Below are positions 10,135 to 20,657 of a stretch of 64,000 bases of DNA, piece by piece. The stretch comes from Oceanicola sp. 22II-s10i. GTDB taxonomy: Bacteria > Pseudomonadota > Alphaproteobacteria > Rhodobacterales > Rhodobacteraceae. The notes beneath the pieces are model-generated. The model had not been told where the DNA came from, did no database searches, and worked only from the letters and a program-made list of their open reading frames with translations. The translations under genes and the position numbers were made by a program. The stretch covers positions 1 to 64,000 of the forward strand of contig NZ_AQQU01000013.1 in NCBI RefSeq assembly GCF_002210105.1, in the 5' to 3' direction. How positions within the stretch are numbered: position 1 is the stretch's first letter; each line of letters begins with the position of its first letter.

Positions 10135-10218
10135 GGCGGCGTGGTGGAATGGTATACACAGCAGACTTAAAATCTGCCGCCTTATGGATTGTGGGTTCGA
10201 ATCCCACCGCCGCTACCA
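10135..10218 (+). tRNA. tRNA-Leu (anticodon TAA)
   Basis: An 84-nt class II tRNA with encoded CCA. The acceptor arms GGCGGCG and CGCCGCT pair (first pair G-U). The anticodon stem-loop GCAGA-CTTAAAA-TCTGC gives TAA. An extended variable arm follows, and the T-arm GTGGG-TTCGAAT-CCCAC is perfect. It reads UUA leucine codons, rare in such a GC-rich genome. An IS remnant begins 29 bases downstream. Confidence 0.97.
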
Positions 10219-10247
10219 ATGAAGGACAACCGGGCTTTCCCTGAAAA

Positions 10248-10552
10248 TGTGGAGAGCACCAACTGAGGACTCAGAAGGCGTTCTACGGGAAGCGGAAACA
10301 GGCCGACGCCGTTGTTTCGGCGTGACGCGCTGCGACATCGCCATGGTCGAGAGGTTCTTCAAGACGATCGAGTCGGCACTGATCCGGCTGTCGGCCTACG
10401 CCTCGCCCCGGCAATCGCGACAAAAGGCCGAAGACGCCATCGCCCGACACATCGACGGGTCGTACAATCCCGTCAGACGGCACTCATCGCGCGACTTCCA
10501 GAGCCCGAACGCCTCCGAGCGGACAGCCCGCAAACCCTGAACGCTCTCCACA
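10248..10552 (+). mobile_element. IS3-type insertion sequence remnant bounded by 10-bp inverted repeats
   Basis: The left end TGTGGAGAGC (10248-10257) and right end GCTCTCCACA (10543-10552) are perfect inverted repeats beginning TG and ending CA, as in IS3-family elements. The 305 bp between them encode only the C-terminal end of an IS3-type transposase, so the element is internally deleted and cannot move by itself. No convincing target-site duplication is visible. It sits beside tRNA-Leu. Confidence 0.65.
10316..10540 (+). pseudogene. IS3-family transposase, C-terminal fragment of integrase core
   Basis: The fragment reads C-D-I-A-M-V-E-R-F-F-K-T followed by SALIRLSAYASPRQSRQKAED and YNPVRRHSSRDFQSP. 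This matches the end of the DDE integrase core (usual form DNAxxExFFKTLK ... YNxxRxHSxLGYxSP). The Glu in MVERFF would be the third catalytic acid. The first two acids and OrfA are missing, so it is a decayed copy. Confidence 0.75.
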
Positions 10553-11393: not shown

Positions 11394-11996
11394 ATGCTTA
11401 AGGTGGGCACACGCAATTGGACAGCGTTGAGCTGTTCCACTGTTGGGCTGGCATTGGCTTTGACATATGCTGCGCCGGCGCGGGCCGACGGAGAGTTTTT
11501 CCAGCTCGATATCGCCGAAGGCGCGACGGACTTCAGCCTCGCGATTGCGAGGGGACGACTCAATCTCGGCGGGAATTACGCCCGTTACGACGGCGGCAGT
11601 TCCGGCAGCCTGTCCTTGCTGTGGTCAATACCGGTCGACCCGCTCGGCACGTTCAAGGTCGGACCCAGCGTTGCCCGCATCCTGAGCGACACCGATCCTG
11701 ACAGAACTCGGGTCGGGGCCAAGATCACGTTCGAGCGCTGGTCGCCGACCGAATTCGGCCATCTCTTCCTCCTGGGCGAATACAGCACGATCGACAACAG
11801 CTACTTCGGGCTGGTTCAGACCGGGTTCGGCAACTCCGGCTTCGCGGCCGAGCTGTCTGTCGGCGGCAGCGACAACTACAGCGCCATCACCGCTGCGGTA
11901 TCGAAGCGGATCGGTGAGGGACCACTGGTCCTCAGGGCGGGCTATCGCTTCAAGGCCGAGACCCTGTTCGTCGGTTTCGCCATCAACACGTTCTAA
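11394..11996 (+). CDS. Putative small outer-membrane beta-barrel protein
   Basis: 200 aa from an ATG at 11394 preceded by GAGGACGG. A signal peptide spans about residues 1-32, ending near AAPARADGEF. The mature part alternates short amphipathic strands (FSLAIARGRLNLGGNYARYD, SLSLLWSIPVD, RVGAKITFERW, HLFLLGEYSTI, LVLRAGYRFKAE). It ends in FVGFAINTF, with the terminal aromatic typical of barrel substrates of the Bam machinery. Length fits an 8-strand barrel. The next gene, a dCache-HAMP membrane protein, starts 12 bases later, so the two form an operon convergent with the GT2 glucan synthase operon. A role as the outer-membrane exit or anchor for the polymer is my inference; no family was recognised. 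Confidence 0.6.
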   Translation: MLKVGTRNWTALSCSTVGLALALTYAAPARADGEFFQLDIAEGATDFSLAIARGRLNLGGNYARYDGGSSGSLSLLWSIPVDPLGTFKVGPSVARILSDTDPDRTRVGAKITFERWSPTEFGHLFLLGEYSTIDNSYFGLVQTGFGNSGFAAELSVGGSDNYSAITAAVSKRIGEGPLVLRAGYRFKAETLFVGFAINTF

Positions 11997-12008
11997 CAGG
12001 AGAAGCCA

Positions 12009-13112
12009 ATGGCTGAGAATCCGTACCGGGGATTGATCACTTTGCCACAGGCCGCATACGGTTTCGTTGCACTCTCATTCCTCGTGCTGACCCTGGTCAC
12101 GATCGCGCTGTTTTCGGCGCGGTCCGAGTCCGTGCTGGACGATGCACTGGACAGCGCGGTCAGGAAGCGGACCGAGGCGGCGGCGCAGGATTTCGCCCGG
12201 ACGCTGCACTCCGACTGGGCCAATCTCAAGCACCTTTCCCGCATGATCGACGGCTCGGACATCGGTGGTGTGGGCGAGGTCATGGCCGGGATTCGGGGCA
12301 ATGGTGAACGGATCTCGTGGATCGGTTACGCCGGTGTGGACGGCATCGTGCGCGAGGCTTCGGACGGGTTGCTGGTCGGCGCGGATGTCACTGAAAGACC
12401 CTGGTTCCGCAACGGCCTGCGTTCGGGGTTCGCGGGCGACGTGCACGATGCGGTCTTGCTGGCCAAGCTCCTGCAGCCCAAGGGTGGCGACCCCTTGCGC
12501 TTTGTCGACCTTGCCCTGCCGGTCACAGACGGCAGGGGAGAACTGACGGGTGTCGTCGGCATCCATATCGACGCAGCATGGGCAGAACGGTTTCTGACTG
12601 AAACGGCCGAAAGCCTGGGGGTCGACCTTTACCTGATAAACCAGTCCGGTGAGGTGGTCATGGCGAGCGGTGGCCAGTCGCCCGACGAGGACGAACAAAA
12701 GCTGCTGGCGGCCGCGCGTCTTGGTGCCGAGTCGGCCAGCCGCGATGAATGGCCGGATGGGCAGCAGTACTTCACCACGCTTGTGCCGGACGTGAGTTAC
12801 GCGGATTTGCCGAGCTTCGGATGGCGGCTTGCCGGACGGCTGGACGTGCAGACTTTCCGTCCCCAGATCTACACGCTCGTCGTGTCCGCGATGCTGGCCG
12901 CCGCAGTGGCGCTTGGGGCGCTCGCGGCGCTCACCCATCTGTTTGTGCGCATTTACATCCGGCCCATCGGGGCACTTGTCGAGAACGCCACGCAGCTTGC
13001 GGCAGGCGAGGCGGTCTATCCGCGCGAACGCAACGCGACGCGCGAGGCCGCACAGCTGTCGGCCGCGCTGGCGGTCCTGCAGGCGCGCAGGCAGAAGATC
13101 AGCGGTTACTGA
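12009..13112 (+). CDS. dCache-HAMP membrane sensor protein without output domain
   Basis: 367 aa; the ATG at 12009 follows AGGAGAAG. The order is: membrane helix 1 at about 16-38; a periplasmic dCache-type sensor at about 45-275, with features such as WIGYAGVDGIVREASDGLLVGADVTERPWFRNGL and DLALPVTDGRGELTGVVGIHID; membrane helix 2 at about 283-308; then a HAMP-like segment (RPIGALVENATQLAAGEAVYPRERN). It stops after a short helix with no GGDEF, kinase or MCP domain. It may sense a periplasmic signal and act through contacts with another membrane protein. The 3' end overlaps the end of the GT2 gene by 14 bases on the opposite strand, suggesting a fixed relationship with the glucan locus. Confidence 0.8.
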   Translation: MAENPYRGLITLPQAAYGFVALSFLVLTLVTIALFSARSESVLDDALDSAVRKRTEAAAQDFARTLHSDWANLKHLSRMIDGSDIGGVGEVMAGIRGNGERISWIGYAGVDGIVREASDGLLVGADVTERPWFRNGLRSGFAGDVHDAVLLAKLLQPKGGDPLRFVDLALPVTDGRGELTGVVGIHIDAAWAERFLTETAESLGVDLYLINQSGEVVMASGGQSPDEDEQKLLAAARLGAESASRDEWPDGQQYFTTLVPDVSYADLPSFGWRLAGRLDVQTFRPQIYTLVVSAMLAAAVALGALAALTHLFVRIYIRPIGALVENATQLAAGEAVYPRERNATREAAQLSAALAVLQARRQKISGY

Positions 13113-15078
13113 ACGAGAACCGTTCCATCAGGTCGCTGATCAGTGCGGTTGCGCGGACGTTTGAGACACCCGGCGCATTTCCTTCAGCGTAGAAGCGGAC
13201 GAAGAACGCATCGCGCTGCGCCGAATCCGGCAGCAACTGCACCCGCGCGCCATCCGCGGTCGACGCGATGACATATGCCCCGACCTCGCCCGGAACCCCT
13301 TCGATCTCGATCGTGCCGCGCGTCTCGGTCGGGAAGACGGCACCGCGCAGGCGCACCGTGTCCATCGTCAGCGACGTGATCCATAGCCCCCATTCGTCTG
13401 CGCCTGACCGGAAGGTCACGCGCTCGGGGCGGTCGGCTACGTGTATTTCGGTGCGGGGCATTTCGATGCATGCCAGAGACGTCACGCCGAGCACGACGAG
13501 ATTGTAGAGCGTCCAGAACAGGATCACCCACTTTCCGTCGCCCGCGTCGTTGAAGGCAAAGCGGTCGGACACGACCCCCAGCCAGAGCCCCACGAAGGTG
13601 GCAAGGAAACCCAGAAGGAACGGCATCATCATTTGCCATTGCACGACGATGCGGGACCGGTCGCCGCCCTTGGCCGTGACCGAGAACGGGTGCCCGTGCG
13701 GCCGGAATAGCCCTACGATCGCCGCGCGGCTGATCGGAATCGCGCCGATCAGCTGACTGACGTCGTTCAGGATGGGCACCACCATGCCGCGGCTGAGGAT
13801 GTTCAGGATCACGATGATCCAGATGTAGTAACAGCCAAAATAGCTGATCACGTCCGGCAGGCGGGCATCGACCACGGTGATGTTGCCGTACCAGTAGAGC
13901 AGCGGAAACAGGATCGCGGCGATGCGAAAGGGAAAGGTCGTCAGCCAATAGAAGACCGAGTCGATGACGCTCCACCGGTCGCGCAGTCGCAGGTTGCTCT
14001 TCGCGAAGGGACCGAGCGAGGACCGTGCGATCTGCATCAGTCCGAGACACCAGCGGGCACGCTGCGTGACGTATTCCCTGAGGCCTTCCGGTGCGAGACC
14101 CTCGGTCAAGGGCTCGGCCAGATAGACGGTGCGCCATCCCTTGTTCTGAAGGGCCAGGGTCAAGAGGAAATCCTCGGTCACGCTTTCCGTCGGCAAGCCG
14201 CCGATGTCCTGCAGCGCCGACATTCGGCAGACCGACGAGGTGCCGCAGCAAAAGGCGATACCCCAGCCATCGCGGGACGGCTGCATGTGGTCGAAGAAGA
14301 AGCGCTGTTCGTCGGGATAGGACCGGCTCAGACCGAAATTGTGCTGGATCGGGTCAGGGTTGAAGAAATGCTGCGGCGTCTGCACCAGCCCGACGTCCGG
14401 GTCGTGGAACAGCGCCAGCGTGCGCGACAGGAACCCCCTGTGCGGCACGAAATCGGCGTCCAGCACGGCGACGAAATCCGGCGGCACCGCGTCCTCGGCC
14501 AGCCGCGCCAGCGCGTGGTTGATGTTGCCGGCCTTGGCGCCCTTGTTGTCGGGGCGGCGCATGTAGCGCACGCCAAGCTGGTCGCAGAAATCCCGCAACC
14601 AGTCCCGGCGGCTGTCGTCCAGGACGATGACCTCCTTGTTCTGGTGGCGGAGTGAGCGCGACCCGACGATGGTGCGCTCGAGGACGTCCTTGTCCTCGTT
14701 GTAGGTCGCGATCAGGATTGCGACCTTCGGCTCGGGTCCATTCCACCAGCCGGCATGTTCCGTCGCCTCGTCGCTGCGCAGTTTGACACGCGACATGATG
14801 ACGAAGGCGCTGAGCGAGCCGACCAGCGACAGCATCTCGAGCGCGAAAAGCGATCCGGAGGCGAGAAAATCGATGGTCAGACCGACTGGCGCCAGGGTCT
14901 CGGTCAGTCGCCACCACGCGTAGCGAATTGCGAGGAAGAACGCGATCGTGAACAGCGCCGCGCGGTGTCTGTCGTTGGTCCGGTCGACAATGGACGGCAG
15001 GATCAGGGCGATGCCCGTGATCATCCACAGATGGATGACGCTGGAGCCGAGGCCACCCAGATGGGGGAACTCAAGCAT
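13099..15078 (-). CDS. Processive GT2 beta-glucan synthase (BgsA/BcsA-like)
   Basis: 659 aa inner-membrane glycosyltransferase. Three N-terminal membrane helices lie at about 12-30, 40-56 and 68-95. The GT2 core (about 117-360) has DDS at 154-156, DAD at 207-209, TED at 301-303 and the product-binding QRARW at 339-343, all marks of processive cellulose-synthase-type enzymes. Four further helices lie at about 375-540. The C-terminal 120 residues sit where BcsA has PilZ, but the RxxxR and (D/N)xSxxG c-di-GMP motifs are absent. An HlyD-like partner ends one base before this start, and a GH8 glucanase lies further upstream; bcsB and bcsC are missing. This matches Sinorhizobium BgsA, the mixed-linkage beta-glucan synthase, better than BcsA. 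Product is inferred. Confidence 0.8.
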   Translation of the reverse strand: MLEFPHLGGLGSSVIHLWMITGIALILPSIVDRTNDRHRAALFTIAFFLAIRYAWWRLTETLAPVGLTIDFLASGSLFALEMLSLVGSLSAFVIMSRVKLRSDEATEHAGWWNGPEPKVAILIATYNEDKDVLERTIVGSRSLRHQNKEVIVLDDSRRDWLRDFCDQLGVRYMRRPDNKGAKAGNINHALARLAEDAVPPDFVAVLDADFVPHRGFLSRTLALFHDPDVGLVQTPQHFFNPDPIQHNFGLSRSYPDEQRFFFDHMQPSRDGWGIAFCCGTSSVCRMSALQDIGGLPTESVTEDFLLTLALQNKGWRTVYLAEPLTEGLAPEGLREYVTQRARWCLGLMQIARSSLGPFAKSNLRLRDRWSVIDSVFYWLTTFPFRIAAILFPLLYWYGNITVVDARLPDVISYFGCYYIWIIVILNILSRGMVVPILNDVSQLIGAIPISRAAIVGLFRPHGHPFSVTAKGGDRSRIVVQWQMMMPFLLGFLATFVGLWLGVVSDRFAFNDAGDGKWVILFWTLYNLVVLGVTSLACIEMPRTEIHVADRPERVTFRSGADEWGLWITSLTMDTVRLRGAVFPTETRGTIEIEGVPGEVGAYVIASTADGARVQLLPDSAQRDAFFVRFYAEGNAPGVSNVRATALISDLMERFSFSNR

Positions 15079-15079
15079 G

Positions 15080-16243
15080 TCAGCCGCGGAACAGGTCGAG
15101 CGGCCGCCGGTCGAAGAAGGCGCGTCCGGTCTGGCCGATCAGACATCCGACCTCGGGGTCGGTCGCCAGACCCGGAATCTGAAGCATCACGTCATACCGT
15201 TCGAGATGCTTCTGGCTGGGGGCCACCGCGAGGTGGTCATAGACGGTCACCGCGCCAGAACCGGCCAGCCGGATCACGGTGCCGTCAAAGGTGCCGGACT
15301 GACCTTCCAGCCGGAACGTCGCGGCCTGTCCGATCCTGAGACCGTTGTAGACCCGTTCGGTCACCGACAATGTGACCATGACCTGGTCGCAGTCCACCAG
15401 CCGCAGGATCGGGTCGCCGCGTTGAACCGTGACGCCGTCGGCCTGAAGGACTTCCCAGAACAGGCCGTCGTTCGGCGCACTGATCTTGCCGCCACGGAGC
15501 CCATTCACCCGCACCCGTTCGCGGTCGATCCGACCTTGTATGGCCGCGGCCCGAGCCTGTGCTTCGGCCAGCGCGTTCTTCAGGCCGGTCAGGACGGAGT
15601 CGAGTTCGGTCGCGCGCTGCGCGGCATTGGGGGAATCGTTGTAGCCATCGCCAAGAAACACGCCTGCCTCGCCGGCCTTCACCGCGATTTCCAGAACCTC
15701 GACCCGCTCCCGCGCATGGTCCAGGACGAGGGCATCGACCAGCGGTTCGCCCGGAAGGCGGTTCTGAAGATCGTCCAGCCCGTCGATCAGCCGCTGGTCG
15801 GCATCGTCGGGAAAGGCCCCGCCTTCGAGCAGCTTCAGCCGTATCCGGGCGTGATCAAGCCGTGTGCGCAGTTCGTCCAGCCGGTGTTGGCTATACACGT
15901 CGGACCGGTCCACCAGCCCGGCGCGCACAGTCTCGGTCGCCTCAATGTCGGCGGTCAGTCGCGCGGCTTCGGCCGCGGAGAAATCAAGTTCCATCATGAG
16001 GTCGTTCAGCCGGACGGAATCGACCAGTTCGTCGGTCACGGTGGCGAGGACCTCACCTTCGGACACACGCGAGCCCAAGGCACGATCCGGCATCTCCAGC
16101 GTACCGGCCACTTCTGAACGGACAGTGACCACCGGGGCATTCACAACCGCATCCGCGCTGGCTCCGGACATCTGTTCTCCGACGATGATCCAGACGGCAA
16201 CGACAATTACGATGAGACCGATCGCGAGACGGGCGTATTTCAT
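15080..16243 (-). CDS. HlyD-like membrane fusion protein of the glucan locus (BgsB-like)
   Basis: 387 aa with one N-terminal membrane helix (about 5-23) and a long periplasmic part. A split lipoyl/biotinyl-like half at about 38-75 (VVTVRSEVAGTLEMPDRALGSRVSEGEVLATV) precedes a long alpha-helical hairpin (about 80-270). The second lipoyl half follows (GKISAPNDGLFWEVLQADGVTVQRGDPILRLVD), then a beta-barrel domain. In type I secretion such proteins bridge to the outer membrane. Here the gene is directly followed by the GT2 synthase, as in bgsBA and like Alg44 in alginate synthesis, so it probably guides the nascent polymer through the periplasm. Start is an ATG at 16243. Confidence 0.82.
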   Translation of the reverse strand: MKYARLAIGLIVIVVAVWIIVGEQMSGASADAVVNAPVVTVRSEVAGTLEMPDRALGSRVSEGEVLATVTDELVDSVRLNDLMMELDFSAAEAARLTADIEATETVRAGLVDRSDVYSQHRLDELRTRLDHARIRLKLLEGGAFPDDADQRLIDGLDDLQNRLPGEPLVDALVLDHARERVEVLEIAVKAGEAGVFLGDGYNDSPNAAQRATELDSVLTGLKNALAEAQARAAAIQGRIDRERVRVNGLRGGKISAPNDGLFWEVLQADGVTVQRGDPILRLVDCDQVMVTLSVTERVYNGLRIGQAATFRLEGQSGTFDGTVIRLAGSGAVTVYDHLAVAPSQKHLERYDVMLQIPGLATDPEVGCLIGQTGRAFFDRRPLDLFRG

Positions 16244-16332
16244 ATCAGATCCTTGGAGGATTGGGCGATTGGTTAGGGGCTCTGTGGATCCGGGCCGAAT
16301 CCCTCGAACCTACTATTTCACGGCGCTGTCGT

Positions 16333-17349
16333 CTAATTATGGCGCTCGTTTCGGGCGATGGCGCAGAGCAAATGCAGTGTTGCTGAGTAGTATGGCTGAT
16401 TGGCAATATCTTGCCCTTCGATATCCGGAATTCCGCCGGAGGCCAGCGTGACAATGGCCCGGAACCCCGGTTCGTTGCTTTCGCTGAGCGGGGTGCCGTC
16501 CTTGTCGAAGGCCACCGCAACATGCCCTGGGAGGGTGGCCCGGCGCATGGCGGCACGCATTTCAACGACCGCCGCATGATCACCCAGACCGGACCAGGCA
16601 AGGTAGAGCGGCACGCGAAGCGCGTCATAGCTCGATCGCAGAAGGTGGTCGCGGGGCGGGGCGAACCCCTCGGTCGTGACCTCGATCCAGTCGGGCACCG
16701 GGCCGATGGAGGCGAGCTCGTGCAAGAGGCGCTCGCCGTGGGCCGCGGCTTGTGACAGCTCAGGCATCCCGAAGGCCGTGCCAAGCTCCCTCAGGGCGCG
16801 GGGATGATAATAGGACGGGTTCACGAGCACGCCCGCCTCGTCATGTCGCGCCTCGGCTCCCGGAAGGAGAAGCAGCGCGTCGGGTGTCCGCGGGTCGGGT
16901 GCCAGACACAGTGTGACGACGTCGCGGCAGATCGCCTCGGTCACGGAAAGGTCGATCGACCAGCCCGTCACGCGGGACGCTCGCAATAGGGCCCAGGCCC
17001 GGAACAGGTCGCCGTCCGTGGCATTGTGCCAGTCGAGGATGTGCTGTGCCTGTGAAGGGTCCCAGGCCCAGGACATGAGCGCGTCCTGGCGATTGGCGAG
17101 TGTCCGGCGCGTCCAGGCCTCGATCCGCTCGAAGGTGGGCCGGTCTCCGAAGGCCTGCGCAAGCAGGAGGCCATAGGCCTGCCCCTCGGAGTGGCTGATG
17201 CCGTTCTGGCCGTTGTCAACCACTCTGCCGTCCTGAGCAACGAACTTGTCGCGCCACTGAATCCAGGCCGACCTGCCATCACCGCCCCTTGCTCCGTAGG
17301 CCGCAAGCGGAAGCGACGCGAGGGCTCCAATGAAGGGTCTGCGTTTCAT
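16333..17349 (-). CDS. Glycoside hydrolase family 8 endoglucanase/licheninase
   Basis: 338 aa secreted glucanase. The ATG at 17349 gives a twin-arginine type signal (KRRPFIGALASLPLA), suggesting Tat export. GH8 motifs are clear: the catalytic acid Glu55 in HSEGQAYGLLLA, the substrate-binding ATDGDLFRAWALLRA (Asp112 and Asp114), and SSYDALRVPLYLAW near residue 245 containing the usual catalytic base. GH8 includes BcsZ cellulases and beta-1,3-1,4-glucan hydrolases. As first gene of the operon with the HlyD-like and GT2 genes, it probably trims the polymer during synthesis or release. It lies 89 bases upstream of the HlyD-like gene. Confidence 0.88.
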   Translation of the reverse strand: MKRRPFIGALASLPLAAYGARGGDGRSAWIQWRDKFVAQDGRVVDNGQNGISHSEGQAYGLLLAQAFGDRPTFERIEAWTRRTLANRQDALMSWAWDPSQAQHILDWHNATDGDLFRAWALLRASRVTGWSIDLSVTEAICRDVVTLCLAPDPRTPDALLLLPGAEARHDEAGVLVNPSYYHPRALRELGTAFGMPELSQAAAHGERLLHELASIGPVPDWIEVTTEGFAPPRDHLLRSSYDALRVPLYLAWSGLGDHAAVVEMRAAMRRATLPGHVAVAFDKDGTPLSESNEPGFRAIVTLASGGIPDIEGQDIANQPYYSATLHLLCAIARNERHN

Positions 17350-17700: not shown

Positions 17701-18336
17701 TCAGCCCTTGCGTCCGCCATCGTCCAGGTTCGAGGCCAGCTTGACCAGTTCGACCAGTGACTTGACCGCGAGCTTCTCGAGAATGCGGGCGCGGTGGTGG
17801 TCGACCGTCCGGGGGCTGATCCCGAGCGCAGCGGCGATCTCCTTGCTCGTGGCCTCGGCCGGGCGGGCCAGCACCTGGTTCACGATCTCGGCCTCGCGTT
17901 CGGTCAGGCGGGCAAGACGCTGGCGGAATGCGTTATGCGTCGCGCTGTCGGCCTGCCGCGAGGCGGCGTAGTCAAGCGCCGCGCGGATGCGGTCGACCAG
18001 TTCGGACTGGCGGAAGGGTTTCTCAAGGAAGTCGATCGCGCCGCCCTTCATCGCCTGAACGGATTCCCGGACCCCGCCGTGGCCGGTGATGAAGACCACG
18101 CCAAGGGGCCAGCCGCGGGCGTTCAGATCGGCCTGCAGTTCCAGCCCGTTCACCTCGGGCATCCCGTAATCGAGCACGAGGCACGCGACATGGCTGCCGT
18201 CGCAGGAGGCGAGGAAGCTTGCGGCGGAGTCGTAGGCCTCGACCTCGAATCCGCGCTGGCGCAACGCACGGGTGAGAGACGTGCGAATGTCCTGATCGTC
18301 GTCGACGATGTAAACGAGTGAGTGGTCTTCTGTCAT
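17701..18336 (-). CDS. FixJ/NarL-type response regulator
   Basis: 211 aa. The receiver domain occupies residues 8-125, with the acidic pocket VDDDQD, phosphoacceptor Asp56 (LVLDYGMPEVNG), Thr in FITGHG and Lys in LEKPF, so it is intact. A LuxR-type helix-turn-helix follows at about 140-205 (LTEREAEIVNQVLARPAEATSKEIAAALGISPRTVDHHRARILEKL). The ATG overlaps the stop of the sensor kinase by four bases, so they are a coupled pair. Its position just upstream of the GH8-HlyD-GT2 operon on the same strand makes regulation of that operon a reasonable hypothesis, unproven from sequence. Confidence 0.92.
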   Translation of the reverse strand: MTEDHSLVYIVDDDQDIRTSLTRALRQRGFEVEAYDSAASFLASCDGSHVACLVLDYGMPEVNGLELQADLNARGWPLGVVFITGHGGVRESVQAMKGGAIDFLEKPFRQSELVDRIRAALDYAASRQADSATHNAFRQRLARLTEREAEIVNQVLARPAEATSKEIAAALGISPRTVDHHRARILEKLAVKSLVELVKLASNLDDGGRKG

Positions 18337-20657
18337 GCCGCATCCTTGTGCGGCATCGCTATGTCCACCGTAAAGCTGAATCGGGCGCCGCGCGGCTCCC
18401 CACTTTCGTGCCACAGCCGTCCGCCGTTGGCCTGCACGATAGATTGGCAGATCGACAGGCCCAGCCCCATGCCGCTCGGCTTGGTGGTGGCGAAGTCGGC
18501 GAAGAGGTTGATGGCGGGATCGACGCCCGGCCCGTTGTCCGCGACGGTCAGCATGACCTGACCGTTCTCCTGCCGGGCGCTGAGGTGGACGCGGCGGTCG
18601 TTCTGCCAGTCCGAGGCCAGCGCCTCGATCCCGTTGCGGATCAGGTTGACCAGCACCTGCGCGATCTGCAGGCGGTTGGCATGGACCGGGGGCAGGTGGC
18701 CCAGATCGGCAGTGACCGTGACCCCGGCGGCCCGCGCCTCGGCGCTGACCAGGTGGCGGGTCTGTTCCACCAGCCCGGCCAGGTCGAAGTCGCTGCGGAT
18801 GCCTTCGTCGCGGCGGATGAAGGCGCGCAGGGCCTTGATGATGTCGCCCGCGCGCATGGACTGTTCCGCGATCTCTTCCAGCGTGGCGTGCAGTTCGCTG
18901 TCCGCCCCGGCCAGCCGGTCCACGGCGAAAAGCGCGCTGTCGGCGTTCTGCGCGATGGCGGTCAGCGGCTGGTTCAGTTCGTGCGCCAGACCGGCGGCCA
19001 TCTGGCCCATCGTGTTGTCGCGCGACAGGTTCGACAGTTCGCGGCTGAGCTCCGCGATCTGGTCCTCGGTCTGCTTGGCCTGGGTGATGTCCTCCATCGT
19101 CAGGACGTAATGCAGCGGCTTGCCGTCGTGGTTGAAGACCATGATCGCGTTGACCGCGACCCAGATCGCCTCTCCGTCATGGCGCAGGCAGCGCAGTTCG
19201 TGGGTGATCTCGTGCGGCGCGCTCTGACGGGCGCCGTCGAACAGCAGGAAGGGCGGATCGTCCGGGTGCACGAGGTCGGAAAACGCCATCTGTTCGAGCG
19301 CCGCGGTGTCATAGCCGGTGATCGTGCAGAAGCGGTCGTTCACGCGCAGGAACCGGCCCGAGGAGGAATCGATCTGCGCCATGCCGCGCGACGACAGGTC
19401 GAAGGTCTGGCCATATTCGATCTCGGTCGCCCGCCGCGCCGCGATCTGCTGCATGAGCGTGGTGTTCGCGTTTTCCAGCTCCTGATAGGTCTTGGGCAGC
19501 GGCTCGGCGGGATCGAGCTCCCCCTGCGAGATCAGGGCGGAGCGGACGGCGAAGGCGCGGACAGGCTTGTAGATGTAGTTGGCCAGCCCCAGACCGGCCA
19601 GACCGGTGATCGCCGCTACCAGCGCCGCGATCCAGATGTTGGTCCGCCGGTTCAGCTTGATGACCTCGGTAAAGTCGCTCTCCGGGGCATAGGCGGCGGT
19701 GATCCACGGCAGGTTTTCATTGATCGGCGGCATCACGACCGAGACATAGGTCTCGCCGCCATAAGTGAATTGCGACAGCGTTTCCCGGTCGACCGAGATC
19801 GTCCCCTGGTCCATCAGGTCCCCGAAGGCCGCCCGTGCGATCGGATCCTCGAAGTCGCGGATATTGGCGAAGCGCAGCGTGCCGTCGGCATCCTGTGTCT
19901 TCAGCAGGGCCTTGTTCGGATGGGCGATCACATCGCCGTTGCTGTGGATGATCAGCGCCTGCCCGGAGTCGCCGATCCTGAGCCGGGCGAGAAAGTTCGA
20001 GATGTCGCTGATCTCGATGTCGACACCGACGATGCCGCGCACGTGCCCAGGCTGGTCCAGCACGGGCGAAGCGAGCGTGATACCCGGCCGCTGCGACGAG
20101 AAGAAGATATAGGGATCGGTCCAGACCGTGGTCAGCCGGTCGCGGGCCAGCACATACCAGGGCCGGGTGCGCGGATCGTAGGTGTCTTCGGGATCCATCC
20201 GCCGTTCGACAACCGCGAAGTTCTCGTCCCGCCAGATCAGTTCCGTGGTGCGCGTCTCGCCCTCGGTGCGGATGATCTTGGTTCGGAACGGGGCGGGGCC
20301 CTCGCTGCGCATGACATAGACGAAACCGCCGGTTTCGGTCCCATGGTAAAGTCCCGAGAACTGTGGCGCGAGCTGCAGTTGCTGGAACAGCAGCCGCTCC
20401 AGCTGTTCCGGCACATCGCTGGCGATGACCCGGTCCTCGGCCAGCCGGGCCGACAGTTCCGCCGCGCCGCGCGCCGGGCTGAGGAAACCGCGCGAATGTT
20501 CAATCGCGTTGGTGCCGATGTCGCTCAGCAGGTCACGCGCATGGTCCAGCAGGGCGCGCTCCGAGGTGACATAGGAGGAAAAGACCACCGCCAGAACGGC
20601 AATGAACTGAAGCCCGGCAAGGCCGATGGCCAGCATGGCGCCAAGTGAGTTCCGCAT
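18333..20657 (-). CDS. dCache-PAS sensor histidine kinase (FixL/DctB-like)
   Basis: 774 aa. Membrane helix 1 lies at about 7-28, with a large periplasmic dCache domain at about 35-335 including DPRTRPWYVLARD and VRGIVGVDIEISDIS. Helix 2 lies at about 341-360, followed by a coiled linker, a PAS domain at about 412-528 and the kinase core. The H-box is GLAHELNQPL with His559; the ATP-binding domain shows the N-box VNLIRNGIEAL, DNGPGVD and GMGLGLSIC. It senses a small extracytoplasmic ligand, probably a carboxylate or amino acid judging by Cache type, and phosphorylates the overlapping FixJ-like regulator. Start is an ATG at 20657. Confidence 0.93.
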   Translation of the reverse strand: MRNSLGAMLAIGLAGLQFIAVLAVVFSSYVTSERALLDHARDLLSDIGTNAIEHSRGFLSPARGAAELSARLAEDRVIASDVPEQLERLLFQQLQLAPQFSGLYHGTETGGFVYVMRSEGPAPFRTKIIRTEGETRTTELIWRDENFAVVERRMDPEDTYDPRTRPWYVLARDRLTTVWTDPYIFFSSQRPGITLASPVLDQPGHVRGIVGVDIEISDISNFLARLRIGDSGQALIIHSNGDVIAHPNKALLKTQDADGTLRFANIRDFEDPIARAAFGDLMDQGTISVDRETLSQFTYGGETYVSVVMPPINENLPWITAAYAPESDFTEVIKLNRRTNIWIAALVAAITGLAGLGLANYIYKPVRAFAVRSALISQGELDPAEPLPKTYQELENANTTLMQQIAARRATEIEYGQTFDLSSRGMAQIDSSSGRFLRVNDRFCTITGYDTAALEQMAFSDLVHPDDPPFLLFDGARQSAPHEITHELRCLRHDGEAIWVAVNAIMVFNHDGKPLHYVLTMEDITQAKQTEDQIAELSRELSNLSRDNTMGQMAAGLAHELNQPLTAIAQNADSALFAVDRLAGADSELHATLEEIAEQSMRAGDIIKALRAFIRRDEGIRSDFDLAGLVEQTRHLVSAEARAAGVTVTADLGHLPPVHANRLQIAQVLVNLIRNGIEALASDWQNDRRVHLSARQENGQVMLTVADNGPGVDPAINLFADFATTKPSGMGLGLSICQSIVQANGGRLWHESGEPRGARFSFTVDIAMPHKDAA

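Follow-up and report, generated by a model that had tools for sequence, protein, structure and literature searches.

Among the cellulose-synthase-like members of glycosyltransferase family 2 (GT2), BcsA and BgsA are the best-studied synthases, and both are gated by cyclic diguanosine monophosphate (c-di-GMP), according to PMC5567048. The described systems of this kind include the BcsABCZ cellulose synthase, the BgsBA system of Sinorhizobium meliloti and Rhizobium etli, whose mixed-linkage glucan has alternating β-1,3/1,4 bonds and is sensitive to lichenase, and the CrdASC curdlan system of Agrobacterium. A related locus from Oceanicola sp. 22II-s10i (Rhodobacterales) is compared with them here. 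It lies on contig NZ_AQQU01000013.1 in a stretch of 64,000 nucleotides that is called the window, and its five genes code for a GT2 synthase, a HlyD-like periplasmic adaptor, a GH8 endoglucanase, a barrel-like outer-membrane protein and a dCache-HAMP receptor. The original prediction had called the same five genes at the same coordinates. With a probability of roughly 45%, the locus is read as a β-glucan synthase gated directly by a receptor of its own, HlyD and a KdgM-like barrel serving in export. The parts are of known kinds, and the arrangement is new; in the open-access literature, no paper was found by title or abstract that links a Cache protein or a barrel of this type to such a GT2.

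The locus shares with BgsBA the order of HlyD then GT2 and a short cytoplasmic GT2 tail without PilZ motifs, but it lacks R599 and H615 of BgsA, has another channel entrance, and carries extra genes for the Cache-HAMP receptor, the barrel and GH8. CrdASC also contains a cellulose-synthase-like GT2 without PilZ motifs; the window GT2 differs in belonging to a clade of its own, and the upstream partner is barely alike (21% over 169 aa). In common with BcsABCZ are the catalytic motifs, the gating loop FxVTxK, a GH8 partner and a tail of apparent PilZ ancestry, but the GT2 clade is separate, the PilZ motifs are lost, and neither BcsB nor BcsC was matched in the window's own genome, which is rated 100% complete (the Escherichia coli control was positive for each). 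The combination of HlyD and GT2 without bcsB and bcsC, noted in the original prediction, is thus borne out. The nearest sisters are PilZ-bearing HlyD-GT2 loci, mostly from Hyphomicrobiales (L085, L094, L089, L014, L007 and others; L and G numbers label the loci and the surveyed genomes compared here), with 40-47% identity and a HlyD neighbor. They differ from the window in that both c-di-GMP motifs are present in 10 of 11 synthases, and the Cache gene and the barrel gene are each found in 0/11.

Co-inheritance and structure of the Cache-HAMP receptor

The survey covered 390 genomes drawn evenly from the order Rhodobacterales, with cut-offs of E ≤ 1e-60 for GT2 and E ≤ 1e-8 for the Cache protein. 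GT2s of the window clade were found in 26 genomes (57-100% identity), and 28 more reached E ≤ 1e-60 but with no more than 40% identity. In all 26 genomes the Cache gene lies on the same contig within 3 kb, although the match holds a stop in three of them (G270, G303 and G371). Among the other 364 genomes only G186 matches the Cache protein, with a remnant that contains three stops and has a barrel remnant beside it. The window-type GT2 is single-copy in its own genome, besides one weak match of 29%. Decaying loci were also recognized: in L114 (G270) the four genes for GT2, Cache, HlyD and GH8 are all fragmented, only Cache and barrel pieces are left in L108 (G186), and a stop splits GT2 in L057/L113 (G307).

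The named loci number 93: the window, 12 plasmid loci selected among 633 plasmid records with a match, and 80 genome loci that are the best of 583 confirmed ones. They consist of one BgsA locus, 11 that are PilZ-bearing sisters or L087, and 81 members of the window's clade, which ranges over Rhodobacterales, Rhizobiaceae (including plasmid At of Agrobacterium fabrum C58), Bradyrhizobium, Acetobacteraceae and Azospirillum. The Cache gene is within the fetched stretch in 76 of the 81 clade loci, and it was not seen in the fetched stretches of three BgsA, three CrdS and five BcsA loci. Its position relative to GT2 is convergent in 43 loci, downstream on the same strand in 19, upstream on the same strand in 8 and upstream divergent in 6, with none in 4 (80 loci, not counting L083). 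A single run of all five genes on one strand is seen in L026 and L054. Parsimony on the best tree (66 rows) gives at least 10 changes of arrangement, and by this measure the Cache-GT2 link has outlived at least as many rearrangements. The Cache gene is a core component of the locus. The original prediction had placed both the Cache-HAMP gene and the barrel gene in the locus, and both are co-conserved with GT2 in Rhodobacterales, the barrel less strictly (18 of the 26 GT2-bearing genomes).

One clade member, L083, comes from a metagenome-assembled genome of Opitutae (Verrucomicrobiota), where it sits on a long branch without a Cache gene; its placement may be due to transfer or misbinning. For A. 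fabrum, PMC8656257 lists Atu5089 and Atu5091 ("RcdB, curdlan synthesis protein") among the proteins of detergent-resistant membranes. Judging from gene order, they possibly correspond to Cache and HlyD in the locus on plasmid At (L003:6798-11089, pAtC58; trio Atu5089-Atu5091).

The receptor gene (12009-13112, forward strand) encodes 367 aa, and its 3' end overlaps the 3' end of the GT2 gene by 14 bases (13099-13112). Pfam dCache_1 matches the protein just under the cut-off (43 versus 45 bits), and Pfam HAMP does not match it; among nine receptors scanned, L081 passes for HAMP (26.4 versus 25 bits), and L018 and L026 match weakly. The AlphaFold model (pLDDT 90.4, 36 sequences) consists of a helix at 12-79, a double Cache fold, a helix at 280-331, a short connector and a helix at 345-364, with the end of the protein at 367. 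The part from helix 280-331 onward is read from the model as a putative membrane helix and HAMP. The model and the relatives accordingly present the dCache-HAMP layout, a double Cache between two transmembrane helices followed by HAMP. The periplasmic dCache sensor at residues 36-287 (12114-12869, forward strand) is the variable part of the receptor, and the HAMP-like module at about residues 315-364 (12951-13100, forward strand), soon after which the protein ends, is the constant part. A C-terminal output domain was found in 0/68 receptors, which are those of the window and of all 67 genome loci with a Cache gene; beyond window position 355 they have only 5-62 residues, and 47-62 in six of them. 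Because all 68 receptors are without an output domain, its absence from the window receptor is not a local truncation. Derivation of the Cache protein by truncation of a diguanylate cyclase, with a GGDEF ancestor beside the PilZ-bearing sisters, was considered and rejected, as GGDEF is present in 0/11 such stretches.

Eighteen loci have a GT2 core at least 70% identical to that of the window. Their sensors are 49-60% identical to the window sensor in eight loci (class A) and 22-26% in ten, with none between, and HAMP identity to the window is 40-56% in the close-sensor class and 35-51% in the distant-sensor class. A hidden Markov model (HMM) of the class-A HAMP finds 12/12 class-B receptors (E at most 9.1e-10; class B is the ten plus L030 and L033), and no open reading frame outside the family at E < 0.01; seven other listed matches are family members in L095, L108 and L111-L115. 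When the sensor classes obtained by clustering are mapped on the GT2 tree, they change 9 times or more. If the HAMP contacts a constant partner, it would be expected to stay constant while the sensor changes.

That partner might be a protein other than GT2. Receptors without an output domain could in general pair with other signaling proteins, and the Cache-HAMP protein might signal through a diguanylate cyclase, a chemoreceptor or the neighboring FixL/FixJ-like pair, its link to GT2 being only regulatory. In the window, a FixJ-like response regulator and a dCache-PAS histidine kinase are encoded at 17701-20657, immediately upstream of GH8 and on its strand, and a GGDEF gene is present in 11 Cache-bearing stretches. 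However, the kinase and regulator pair was rejected as a part of the system due to the lack of conservation (among the 92 loci L003-L094 only L076, with 62 bits, exceeds 60 bits), most stretches are without a GGDEF gene, and GT2, HlyD and Cache stay together. Signaling through such another partner is considered improbable.

C-terminal tail of the synthase and c-di-GMP

The C-terminal domain of the window GT2 (residues 537-659; 13102-13470, reverse strand) contains neither of the PilZ motifs RxxxR and D/NxSxxG. In the Cache-bearing clade both motifs are kept in Azospirillum (3/3), and both are found in 0/74 readable tails of the other 78 clade loci, with one or the other in three; the tails of L057, L060, L061 and L063 are not readable, and those of L069 and L077 are cut short. 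Fifty-five window-type tails align nearly end to end with 12 PilZ-bearing tails, from nine sisters and three Azospirillum loci (hhalign 98.2%, E 3.7e-14). A Pfam PilZ scan of eight GT2s gave matches above the cut-off in the two sisters L085 and L094 only; L006, L010 and the L121 BcsA matched with scores under it. Pfam PilZ did not match L003, BgsA, CrdS or the window GT2. The alignment of the tails indicates that the tail of GT2 descends from PilZ and has been repurposed. The tail shows near-fixation of PRxExHxxDxPER, W566 and RxRG and is thus not decaying (H546 in 54/55 and W566 in 55/55, window numbering).

The main rival explanation is that the synthase is still controlled by c-di-GMP, which the changed tail would bind in a non-PilZ way like BgsA, and that the Cache-HAMP protein is a second input or a stabilizer of the complex. 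BgsA itself binds c-di-GMP without PilZ motifs, as described in PMC5567048. The conservation of the tail and the coexistence of both PilZ motifs with a neighboring Cache gene in Azospirillum are consistent with this explanation, as are the equivalents of BgsA Y633 and R656, each kept in 51/54 rows of the window group. On the other side, changing R599 or H615 in BgsA lowers the affinity to c-di-GMP about 1000-fold, according to that paper, and both positions are gaps in 54/54 window-group rows, a result that depends on the alignment. R605 is kept in only 6/54 rows, D608 is not among the commonest letters, and the pair of PilZ motifs is missing from every readable tail outside Azospirillum. For these comparisons L117 was taken as BgsA and L119 as CrdS, and the residues numbered in PMC5567048 and PMC6821405 fall on the expected letters. 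Continued control by c-di-GMP is considered rather unlikely. A mixed-linkage glucan made under c-di-GMP, which the original prediction carried over from BgsA, is not supported here: R599 and H615 are gaps, and the channel entrance differs.

Several points weigh against direct gating by the receptor. As BgsA binds c-di-GMP without PilZ motifs, the loss of the motifs is no proof of the loss of binding; intact motifs and the Cache gene occur together in Azospirillum, and the tail of the Cache-bearing Bradyrhizobium locus L010 still has a sub-threshold PilZ match (18.6 versus 22.5 bits). On the tree the PilZ-motif trait changes 2 times and the Cache trait 5 times, and the correlation test of PilZ loss against Cache gain was discarded due to too few independent changes. 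All 12 class-B sensors are also found by an HMM of the class-A sensor, with E values from 1.5e-25 to 1.5e-36; the two classes are thus distant homologs, which may have diverged fast rather than been exchanged. Sensors of intermediate identity (20-45%) are present in loci whose GT2 is 63-69% identical. Since the division into sensor classes was made with the identities already in view, the p value of 2.4e-4 for the sensor (8 versus 12 loci) is circular; the HAMP difference between the classes has a p value of 0.27 over 43 positions, and only the unchanged HAMP is informative. The GGDEF genes in 11 Cache-bearing stretches, given above, are a further point. Finally, the clade loci L005, L022, L060, L083 and L077 have no neighboring Cache gene; in L022 it is 49 kb away on the same contig, L077 is at a contig end, and no Cache gene was found in the genomes of L060 and L083.

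It is tentatively suggested, as a doubtful but possible history, that the lineage swapped second-messenger control for a receptor. The receptor would have come first, the PilZ motifs would have been lost later with the tail turning into a docking site for the HAMP, and the sensor would have been exchanged or re-tuned many times; the synthase would also make a β-glucan whose linkage pattern is new to the literature. The order of receptor first and motif loss later follows from the position of Azospirillum, which has both, in the 95-row tree; the 32-row tree supports this position weakly (60/96 for the Cache-bearing clade).

Phylogeny, channel entrance and product of the synthase

The GT2 gene (13099-15078, reverse strand) encodes a cellulose-synthase-like processive β-glycan synthase of 659 aa, recognized by both Pfam and NCBIfam. 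Its catalytic motifs are DDS at 154-156, DAD at 207-209, TED at 301-303 and QRARW at 339-343, whose letters are invariant among 13 aligned sequences except S156 and A341. The hallmarks of processive GT2s, D, D, D and QxxRW together with the gating loop FxVTxK, are all found in invariant alignment columns. The nearest solved chains are catalytic subunits of cellulose synthase. Against S. meliloti BgsA the identity is 36% (642 aligned columns), and against CrdS it is 35% (552 columns).

Phylogenetic analysis of 95 rows was performed without the C-terminal tail, after the removal of 12 rows (five fragments or split frames and seven near-duplicates). BcsA, BgsA, CrdS and the window superclade (80 rows, SH-aLRT 98) are all separate in this tree; the window GT2 does not cluster with BcsA, which agrees with the original prediction. 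The window and CrdS group without BgsA with a support of 89, with the program warning of long branches, and in an 86-row tree under another model BgsA joins CrdS. In the 32-row tree the window superclade has a support of 53/77, and the three BgsA rows form their own clade (100/99). The approximately unbiased (AU) test on this tree gave p values of 0.28 for the window superclade with BgsA, 0.41 for BgsA with CrdS, and 0.072 for the Cache-bearing clade with BgsA. A firm placement of the window clade beside either BgsA or CrdS was abandoned since the trees disagree and branch support is low (53/77). As a guess, the window clade corresponds to the "clade 4, unknown function" of PMC6821405.

According to PMC6821405, Gln237, Lys270, His374, Trp422 and His442 are the channel residues of CrdS, and positions 270, 374 and 442 are discussed for linkage choice; position 439 is a shared glucan contact (CrdS numbering). 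At 270/374/442/439, the group from Rhodobacterales and Rhizobiaceae has R/D/Q/D in 54/54 rows, CrdS has K/H/H/E (3 rows), BgsA has R/P/G/T or S (3 rows), and BcsA has L, S/N, E and E (5 rows). The window has Q/R/D/I/Q at 237/270/374/422/442, and thus one of five CrdS channel residues is kept. Position 237 does not discriminate the window group from CrdS or BgsA, and position 422 is variable. By these letters, the channel entrance appears private to the group and unlike those of BgsA, CrdS and BcsA. The product is probably a β-glucan, whose linkage is not readable from the BgsA, CrdS and BcsA families. The GH8 enzyme is nearest to BcsZ-type endoglucanases, which hints at 1,4 bonds in the product.

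These data also bear on the view that this is a plain BgsBA-type locus for mixed-linkage glucan, whose accessory genes have no special meaning. As in L008 and in the bgsBA operon of R. etli (PMC9495663), the HlyD gene precedes the GT2 gene; BgsA and the window have the same residues, R and Q, at CrdS positions 270 and 237, and grouping with BgsA is not rejected (AU p value of 0.28). Yet identity to BgsA is only 36%, CrdS positions 374/439/442 are D/D/Q in all 54 rows versus P, T/S and G in the three BgsA rows, and the Cache gene is co-inherited with the window GT2 and was not found at 3/3 BgsA loci. This view is regarded as very improbable. The description in the original prediction as a BgsBA-type locus for a c-di-GMP-dependent mixed-linkage glucan is supported for HlyD and GT2 without bcsB and bcsC, but not for the glucan and its control. 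A diguanylate cyclase gene is near bgsBA in two of the three BgsA loci examined (L008:5278-6303 and L117:2404-3474).

Putative export components and proposed mechanism

The barrel-like outer-membrane protein is encoded at 11394-11996 on the forward strand, with a signal peptide and a mature part from about 11484. The AlphaFold model has 12 strands with a mean pLDDT of 95.5, and hydrophobic alternation in the sequence is above that of shuffles (21/2000 reach it). Outer-membrane barrels end in F or Y, and so do the barrel relatives (25/25 listed, L049 not being listed). The best solved match of the model is the KdgM porin 4fqe (E 4.4e-4, TM 0.60/0.60), the only match with E ≤ 0.001; weaker matches are other porins and a designed 12-strand barrel. 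KdgM is an oligosaccharide porin. The likeness to KdgM is in the modeled 12-strand fold, but sequence identity is 9%, and in 21 of 26 places the barrel gene has a glycan synthase as its neighbor. No Pfam family, including that of KdgM, was matched at the cut-off in 12/12 barrel relatives. The assignment as BcsS (PF17036) was rejected, as no Pfam match was obtained among these 12 relatives and the window's own genome has only a weak match elsewhere.

In the 390 genomes the barrel gene occurs at 26 places in 25 genomes. Sixteen places are within 4 kb of a window-type GT2, five have another cellulose-synthase-like GT2 at no more than 2.7 kb, one is beside the Cache remnant of G186, and four are elsewhere. 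The five with another GT2 include one beside BcsA and GH8 (L101) and four beside a separate GT2 family. This separate cellulose-synthase-like family, which has an insertion in the catalytic region, was observed beside the barrel gene at L102:6529-8535, L103:4182-6107, L104:7150-9021 and L107:9650-11545. The barrel is missing from the stretch of 50/80 clade loci, and therefore it is not the sole exit. Four TolC-type (OEP) proteins are encoded in the window's genome. Together with the model, this distribution makes the barrel a frequent partner of such synthases in the order Rhodobacterales and a candidate outer-membrane pore.

The HlyD-like periplasmic adaptor (15080-16243, reverse strand; Pfam HlyD_3) shares 27% identity with the HlyD protein that accompanies BgsA in Sinorhizobium medicae. 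The BcsZ-like GH8 endoglucanase (16333-17349, reverse strand) scores 153 bits with Pfam and 137 bits with the BcsZ model, whose cut-off is 299, and its nearest solved structures are GH8 glucanases. GH8 is present in 29/59 loci of the main group and in 0/22 of the Azospirillum, Acetobacteraceae and Bradyrhizobium-Bosea-Microvirga groups. Its signal peptide (17290-17349) starts with MKRRPFIG, and those of relatives start with MNRRRLL, MIGRRRML and MQRRTIL; it appears to be of the Tat type. The scan of the locus for promoters and terminators gave nothing above shuffled sequence. Just outside the locus, at 10135-10540, a tRNA-Leu (taa) gene is followed by a fragment with a weak, sub-cut-off match to an integrase core (rve_3), and they may mark an insertion site.

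Under the proposal of direct gating, GT2 would polymerize UDP-glucose and thread the chain through the inner membrane, HlyD would bridge the periplasm, and GH8 would trim the chain there. Across the outer membrane, the chain or oligosaccharides may pass through the 12-strand KdgM-like barrel or, in loci without it, through a TolC-type protein. In the periplasm, a small molecule would bind to the dCache receptor, whose HAMP, lacking an output domain, would act on the cytoplasmic PilZ-derived domain of GT2 so that the synthase opens. Gene content, co-inheritance, the consistent absence of an output domain, the loss of the PilZ motifs along with the fixation of other residues, the variable sensor over a constant HAMP and the two modeled folds are results of computation; the HAMP-GT2 contact, the direction of its effect, the ligand, the product and the route of export are inferred.

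The unusual channel entrance is a good place to seek a new glucan linkage. If the proposal is true, a private receptor with an evolving sensor would be a direct chemical switch for a biofilm polymer, and bacteria could switch on polymer production directly upon meeting an outside chemical. Such naturally varying sensors would also help to explain how a HAMP drives its partner enzyme. Under the tentative history of sensor exchange or re-tuning, one and the same polymer machinery would be triggered by a different chemical in different bacteria.

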